64,000 nucleotides of DNA, taken from positions 25,080,182 to 25,144,181 of the forward strand of contig NC_088711.1 of assembly GCF_963576615.1 (NCBI RefSeq). Direction: 5' to 3'. Source of the DNA: Watersipora subatra (lineage: Eukaryota > Bryozoa > Gymnolaemata > Cheilostomatida > Watersiporidae). The notes beneath the pieces are model-generated. The model was not told where the DNA came from. It saw nothing but the letters and a program-made list of their open reading frames with translations, and did not search any database. Shown here piece after piece: positions 829 through 60,464 of this stretch. Every line of letters starts with the position of its first letter. Position 1 is the first letter of the stretch. The position numbers were made by a program, and so were the translations under genes.

Positions 829-919
829 ATGTATATATTGTCTTCTATGTTATTGTTCAGCATAATCACATCAGCTTCCGGACAAATTGAGTACTACTGC
901 AGCAATAGCACAATTTCAG
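829..919 (+). CDS. Gene A exon 1: signal peptide
   Basis: ATG at 829 opens [18 protein letters not shown], a hydrophobic leader, followed by mature residues with a Cys and an N-glycosylation site (SNST). The donor follows TCAG (GTTAGT). Length 91 nt and phase 1 match exon 1 of gene B exactly. Confidence 0.8.

Positions 920-60464: not shown

Follow-up and report, generated by a model that had tools for sequence, protein, structure and literature searches.

Two tandem receptor genes in Watersipora subatra

The analysed window is a stretch of 64,000 nucleotides of the genome of the bryozoan Watersipora subatra (C4:25080182-25144181; C followed by a number denotes a chromosome). It contains two tandem genes, A and B, each predicted to encode a receptor with two Venus flytrap modules (VFT1 and VFT2) and a single transmembrane (TM) helix. 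Comparison of the window with itself gave paired exon-like blocks from which the gene models were built, and the frames were set by translated searches. Gene A (829-20994) and gene B (33783-60464) each have 13 exons (Table 1) and encode 1019 and 1050 residues, with ATG codons at 829 and 33783 and stop codons at 20992-20994 and 60462-60464, respectively. Every intron has GT..AG borders, the intron phases are identical between A and B, and the two proteins have identical residues in 690 of 1055 alignment columns. An earlier interpretation made from the DNA letters (the sequence-only reading) had proposed complete in-frame models of 1098 and 1097 residues; the gene ends and complete in-frame models were reproduced, but the lengths were not. 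Pseudogenes were rejected because the exons of A and B contain no stop codons and the overall nonsynonymous divergence (dN) is 0.23 versus a synonymous divergence (dS) of 0.66.

In both proteins, a hydrophobic start (exon 1) is followed by VFT1 (exons 2-7), a Cys-containing linker with the start of VFT2 (exon 7), VFT2 (exons 7-12), the TM helix (end of exon 12) and a tail (exon 13). The signal peptide claimed earlier for both proteins is presumed; in hydropathy, the N terminus of B lies above the threshold and that of A below it. Hydropathy showed one TM helix in both A and B, as had been claimed. An AlphaFold2 prediction of exon 12 alone is poor (mean pLDDT 40.8), its sole confident element being a helix that spans residues 211-236 (pLDDT of this block 70-86).

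Table 1. Exons of genes A and B (window positions; VFT, Venus flytrap; TM, transmembrane; pS and pN, synonymous and nonsynonymous difference)
Exon	Position	Strand	Content
A exon 1	829..919	+	start codon, presumed signal peptide; 10/30 residues common with B
A exon 2	2531..2809	+	VFT1 lobe I (IGLRVLDVC); homologues in B, C (part), D
A exon 3	4363..4523	+	VFT1; B and D have homologues, C a weak candidate
A exon 4	6346..6556	+	VFT1 lobe II; homologues in B, C, D; matches PDB class C VFTs
A exon 5	6692..6886	+	VFT1 second half; homologues in B, C, D
A exon 6	7293..7414	+	VFT1 end, weakly supported; phase fits; 9/41 residues common with B; not found in C
A exon 7	8399..8571	+	VFT1 end, Cys linker and VFT2 start in one frame; homologues in B, C, D
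A exon 8	8763..9066	+	VFT2 lobe I; mGluR-type Arg and Ser contacts retained
A exon 9	10642..10875	+	VFT2 core, Ser/Asp/Tyr contacts; versus B pS 0.81, pN 0.17
A exon 10	11191..11343	+	VFT2 lobe II
A exon 11	13070..13243	+	VFT2, FSDTWND with Asp contact
A exon 12	13539..14250	+	VFT2 end, stalk, TM helix; phase-1 donor behind TM
A exon 13	20744..20994	+	cytoplasmic tail: YMHP, NAAF, PTPAPR; stop
B exon 1	33783..33873	+	start codon, presumed signal peptide
B exon 2	34306..34584	+	VFT1 lobe I
B exon 3	37012..37172	+	VFT1
B exon 4	37363..37573	+	VFT1 lobe II
B exon 5	37709..37900	+	VFT1 second half
B exon 6	38964..39136	+	VFT1 end, divergent from A
B exon 7	41510..41679	+	VFT1 end, Cys linker and VFT2 start in one frame
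B exon 8	43412..43715	+	VFT2 lobe I
B exon 9	46266..46499	+	VFT2 core pocket
B exon 10	46599..46751	+	VFT2 lobe II
B exon 11	48609..48782	+	VFT2
B exon 12	49078..49786	+	VFT2 end, stalk, TM helix; phase-1 donor behind TM
B exon 13	60163..60464	+	cytoplasmic tail: YQSP, NLAY, PTPAP repeats, PTPAPR; stop

A family of six genes

A search of the genome (783,720,542 bases in 239 contigs) with protein A gave 42 matches, which, together with searches limited to the upstream 90 kb, revealed genes C and D. The family has six genes, all gene counts being lower bounds. Besides A and B, the family comprises the inverted neighbour C, D at a distance of 5 Mb on C4, E on chromosome 1 and F on chromosome 10. 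Gene C is encoded on the minus strand, at about 12-52 kb from the window on its upstream side, and has exons 2 (part), 3, 4, 5 and 7-12 in order; its exons 1 and 3 are weak candidates, and exons 6 and 13 were not found in the 90 kb upstream of the window. Gene D (C4:20194010-20218721) shows nine colinear exon matches of 43-62% identity. In E (C1:66.42 Mb) and F (C10:35.16 Mb), which are 47% identical, the C-terminal half of VFT1, VFT2 and the TM helix lie within single frames of 840 and 828 residues that match ANF_receptor at E values of 2.5e-33 and 4.8e-32, respectively. The tandem order of the modules is thus beyond chance, since the divergent genes C and D retain the exon order and E and F join the C-terminal half of VFT1, VFT2 and the TM helix in one frame. 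A misjoin of two separate genes was rejected because VFT1 runs into VFT2 within a single open frame in A, B, C, E and F, and in D a match at 20208515-20208691 covers the same residues. Exon 8 of D is adjoined by an open frame of 219 codons (L045:389-1045), which by eye is perhaps part of a mobile element.

An unrooted tree of seven flytrap sequences (447 columns; VFT2 of A, B, C, E and F with two flytraps linked to a seven-transmembrane (7TM) domain, D being left out) groups the five family members together with a support of 100. However, the kinship of the A-D and E-F groups is distant, because the identity between the A-C and the E-F groups is only 21-26% and, with E as the query, an mGluR-like locus of the same genome scores above every single exon of A-D.

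Identity of the two flytrap modules

ANF_receptor (PF01094) matches A and B with E values of 1e-28 and 1.1e-30 and whole-protein scores of 100.8 and 107.3 bits (cut-off 25.4), the best stretch lying in VFT2. A phmmer comparison of B with the PDB gave mGluR1 at 2.8e-25, and the mGluR3 matches cover residues 405-862. By these matches, VFT2 is a clear class C flytrap of the metabotropic glutamate receptor (mGluR) type. For VFT1, a profile built from the four genes A-D gave 55 matches in the PDB at E≤10, all of which are class C flytraps (best 2.3e-4), and a profile of A and B only gave 16 matches, again all class C (best 0.026); taste and calcium-sensing receptors are its best PDB relatives. The VFT1 of E, taken from upstream of and within the E frame, matches ANF_receptor in two pieces with E values of 2.3e-9 and 1e-7; two TGA codons were read through in the second piece. 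Alignments by hhalign of VFT1 with VFT2 and with the VFT1 of E and F gave no useful result with two or three sequences per side, and the best phmmer match of the C-terminal half of the E VFT1 reached only 0.26. An origin from natriuretic peptide receptor (NPR) or cyclase-type receptors was rejected because class C proteins are the best PDB relatives of both modules. Weak matches to KH_PARP14, NODP and DUF3198 fall below the cut-off and were taken as chance.

The amino-acid pocket

Seven pocket columns were read from a MAFFT alignment that set the VFT2 modules of A-F beside the mGluR-like locus of the same genome. The Ser equivalent to S165 of mGluR1 and the Tyr contact are retained in all six genes, as is an Asp in a column that we take to be that of mGluR1 D208. 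The Thr position holds Ser in A-C and Thr in D-F. The Arg contact is present in A-D and replaced by Met in E and F, and the Asp of lobe II is present in A, B and C and replaced by Glu in E and F (3/5, with D left out). The corresponding contacts described for mGluR3 include Arg68, Ser151, Thr174, Tyr222 and Asp301 (PMC3206071). None of the six genes retains the distal lysine, its position being occupied by Tyr in A and B, Phe in C and D, Val in E and Ser in F; Venus kinase receptors, which are described as activated by L-arginine, also have Tyr there (PMC3703292, PMC2680970 for the activation; PMC3703292 for the Tyr). The Thr/Asp block is missing from VFT1, also aligned with MAFFT, where Ala (A, B) or Leu (C) stands in for the Tyr. 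Judged by these columns, VFT2 seems to keep most of the mGluR-type amino-acid contacts, whereas VFT1 appears to have lost the pocket.

The donor behind the TM helix and the cytoplasmic tail

A phase-1 splice donor directly follows the TM helix in all six genes (C|GTGAGT in A, A|GTGAGT in B, A|GTAATA in C, A|GTAAGT in D, G|GTGAGT in E and G|GTATGT in F). Therefore, the E and F proteins probably do not end at the stop codons of these frames. In A and B, introns of 6.5 and 10.4 kb, respectively, separate the TM exon from the tail exon, which encodes 82-99 residues. The likeness between the two tails scored higher than all of 2000 shuffles (0/2000 reached the score), and synonymous change exceeds replacement change in them (pS 0.91, pN 0.44), both of which support the short tail and stop of the sequence-only reading. 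Three motifs are common to the two tails: YxxP (YMHP/YQSP), presumably of the Crk type, NxxY/F (NAAF/NLAY), which we take to be an endocytic or phosphotyrosine-binding (PTB) domain motif, and PTPAPR. The last fits PxxxPR, described as bound by the SH3 domains of CIN85 (PMC2833206). The shared motifs favour a coupling of the predicted tails to adaptors.

The six-gene family, the apparent loss of the pocket in VFT1 versus the retention of most of it in VFT2 and the donor behind the TM helix in all six genes go beyond the sequence-only reading.

Search for a 7TM, cyclase or kinase partner

Profile searches agree with the absence of a 7TM or enzyme domain claimed earlier: ANF_receptor matched both A and B, and neither protein has a 7tm_3, NCD3G, kinase or cyclase match in Pfam at E≤1. 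Throughout the genome, 7tm_3 gave 13 matches (26/26 candidates scored) and Guanylate_cyc 43 (56/56), none of them near the six genes, and PK_Tyr gave at least 151 matches with 142 of 721 candidates scored. In the 60 kb that follow each of the six genes downstream, there is neither a 7TM nor a cyclase match. HRD is the motif of the kinase catalytic loop; a scan for this pattern, run without a positive control and around A and B only (D, E and F being outside it), found none in 264 kb on both strands.

The genome has 23 ANF_receptor matches, 12 of which are followed on the same strand by a 7TM, cyclase or kinase match within 60 kb, as checked with the cyclase and kinase matches among those listed (two matches on C5 share one cyclase, and two on C9 are one locus). 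Ten of the 11 matches without a partner belong to the six tandem genes and one lies at C9:55.03 Mb; outside the six genes, 12 of 13 matches have such a domain downstream. Five 7TM-linked flytrap loci were detected, together with three further 7tm_3 loci without a detected flytrap, these counts being lower bounds.

The match at C9:55028828, outside the six genes, has no 7TM, cyclase or kinase partner among the matches listed. An ANF_receptor exon at C3:48893802 and a tyrosine kinase exon that lies 22 kb further downstream (C3:48916268) probably belong to a Venus kinase receptor, here in a bryozoan. The 7tm_3 loci at C2:43809663, C3:53288317-53291610 and C10:3102720 have no ANF_receptor match nearby, possibly because the extracellular parts are split or too diverged to be recognised.

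Divergence between A and B and the repeats around them

Comparison of A (829-14250) with B (33783-49786) showed a patchwork in which near-identical tracts give way abruptly to synonymously saturated ones. Tracts with a pS of 0.00-0.11 occur in exons 2, 4-5 and 7, in the second half of exon 8 and in exons 11-12 (first half). The pS reaches 0.7-1.2 in exons 9 and 13, as well as in the first half of exon 8 and at the end of exon 12. The near-identical blocks extend into the introns. The pattern suggests an old pair that gene conversion has homogenised in part, apparently sparing the tail, the TM helix and the pocket core (exon 9).

A short repeat lies directly behind exon 11 in both genes (about 13244-13350 and 48783-48890), and its GTAAGC/GTGAGC units are possible alternative donors. 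The window also contains minisatellites at 21747-23246 (44 bp), 62000-62725 (34 bp), 40232-40791 (20 bp), 46644-47301 (47 bp) and 15444-16538 (21 bp), one of which begins at the end of exon 10 of B. By eye, two copies of a reverse-transcriptase-like element of the non-LTR (long terminal repeat) type lie at 26600-29527 (minus strand) and 56472-59481 (plus strand); one has an open frame of 975 codons, and one is in broken frames within the last intron of B.

Comparison with known receptors

VFT2 belongs to the sequence family of the mGluRs and other class C G-protein-coupled receptors and shares most of their alpha-amino-acid contacts, whereas A and B have two flytraps and no match to a nine-cysteine or 7TM domain. 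NPR-C, which has one flytrap, one helix and a short tail without an enzyme, resembles A and B in this plan, but its single flytrap is not of the class C amino-acid type and A and B have two modules. Venus kinase receptors share with A and B an amino-acid type flytrap, one TM helix and the Tyr at the distal-lysine site (PMC2680970, PMC3703292); however, theirs is one flytrap with a tyrosine kinase, and the probable member at C3:48.89 Mb is separate. SmGBP, a truncated flatworm mGluR, similarly has an mGluR-type flytrap without a 7TM domain, but it has one flytrap, and no C-terminal TM helix is reported for it (PMC3206071). Two flytraps on one TM helix are described for the receptor adenylate cyclases of Trypanosoma brucei, which differ in being protist proteins with a cyclase domain inside (PMC6027212), and tandem flytraps in one chain for BvgS, a bacterial histidine kinase (PMC4352136). 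An animal receptor with tandem flytraps on a single helix was not found among the literature matches listed, a search that did not extend to subscription papers and protein databases, so that an Ensembl or UniProt annotation may exist.

Interpretation

With a probability of roughly 0.45, we read the family as non-catalytic, adaptor-coupled amino-acid receptors that would combine a working flytrap with a structural one in cis on a single TM helix, without an enzyme or 7TM domain. Sensing or uptake of an amino acid is the probable role of the family. Because of the pocket residues and the tail motifs, we suggest an amino-acid-gated VFT2, a VFT1 partner in cis and an adaptor tail. The membrane-proximal VFT2 would bind a free alpha-amino acid, probably not glutamate, since most amino-acid contacts are retained but the distal lysine is replaced (by Tyr in A and B, as in Venus kinase receptors). 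Class C receptors act as dimers, and ligand binding is often confined to one of the two flytraps. In class C heterodimers the non-binding subunit is a separate chain, whereas here that part would fall to the distal, pocket-less VFT1, as a structural or dimerising partner within one chain. On closing, VFT2 would rearrange the dimer, and the tail may recruit adaptors through YxxP, NxxY/F and PxxxPR, leading to signalling or internalisation. More tentatively, the family may represent an undescribed animal receptor class of at least six bryozoan genes, in which a cis pseudo-dimer of a working and a pocket-less flytrap would signal by a non-catalytic, tyrosine-bearing tail. The distinct class of the sequence-only reading is partly supported, in that a distinct domain order recurs in six genes with no 7TM or cyclase match nearby.

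The short tail without a catalytic domain, with NxxY/F and PTPAPR retained in A and B, would also suit a clearance or decoy receptor of the NPR-C plan that binds and internalises its ligand without a signalling output. However, the tyrosine of YxxP is likewise conserved, the pocket is of the amino-acid type and clearance of free amino acids is usually the task of transporters, so we regard this role as doubtful. An obligate co-receptor, the flytraps of which pair with class C receptors, the Venus kinase receptor or receptor cyclases and tune them, seems improbable. Flytrap dimerisation is described for class C receptors and Venus kinase receptors (PMC2680970), and ANF_receptor loci with a 7TM, cyclase or kinase domain downstream are present in the same genome, but there is no evidence of linkage or association, and the two flytraps of one chain might already form a pair. 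That the models are incomplete, with a distant or alternative 3' exon adding a kinase, cyclase or 7TM domain, is very improbable: although all six TM exons end in a phase-1 donor, the introns behind those of A and B are long and the kinase search scored a fraction of its candidates, the tail exon with its stop is significantly conserved, the 7tm_3 and cyclase searches found nothing near the six genes and the kinase-loop scan nothing in 264 kb around A and B.

The evidence on VFT1 is divided, and several points weigh against a second complete flytrap. Exon 6 of A is the weakest exon call, with several candidates tied. Searched alone in Pfam, the VFT1 of A gave a marginal ANF_receptor match (0.018, 14.6 bits, below the cut-off) and that of B none. 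The PDB matches of the four-gene profile are confined to profile positions 52-216, and the last 150-170 residues of VFT1 showed no convincing flytrap likeness in an alignment of the VFT1 C-terminal halves. The second half of VFT1 is also shorter in A and B (156-171 residues) than in E and F (229-232). VFT1 may accordingly be a degenerate half module, a stalk or a cap beside a single true flytrap. We consider this unlikely, as the stretch from lobe I to lobe II matches class C flytraps and the two pieces of the E VFT1 together cover positions 51-326 of the 353 of ANF_receptor. Of the two successive ANF-receptor-like modules claimed earlier, VFT2 is upheld, while VFT1 is recognised as class C by the four-gene profile and its C-terminal half is not. 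VFT1 is read as a divergent class C flytrap with an unproven C-terminal half, and the sequence-only observation as a whole is confirmed in part and stands in the main.

If the reading as adaptor-coupled amino-acid receptors is true, the family would be a natural single-chain version of the class C dimer of a pocket-bearing and a pocket-less flytrap, without a 7TM or enzyme domain, and would show a way in which a metabolite sensor gains a new output. The six tandem genes versus five detected 7TM-linked flytrap loci, both counts being lower bounds, suggest that this lineage reshaped its amino-acid sensing.
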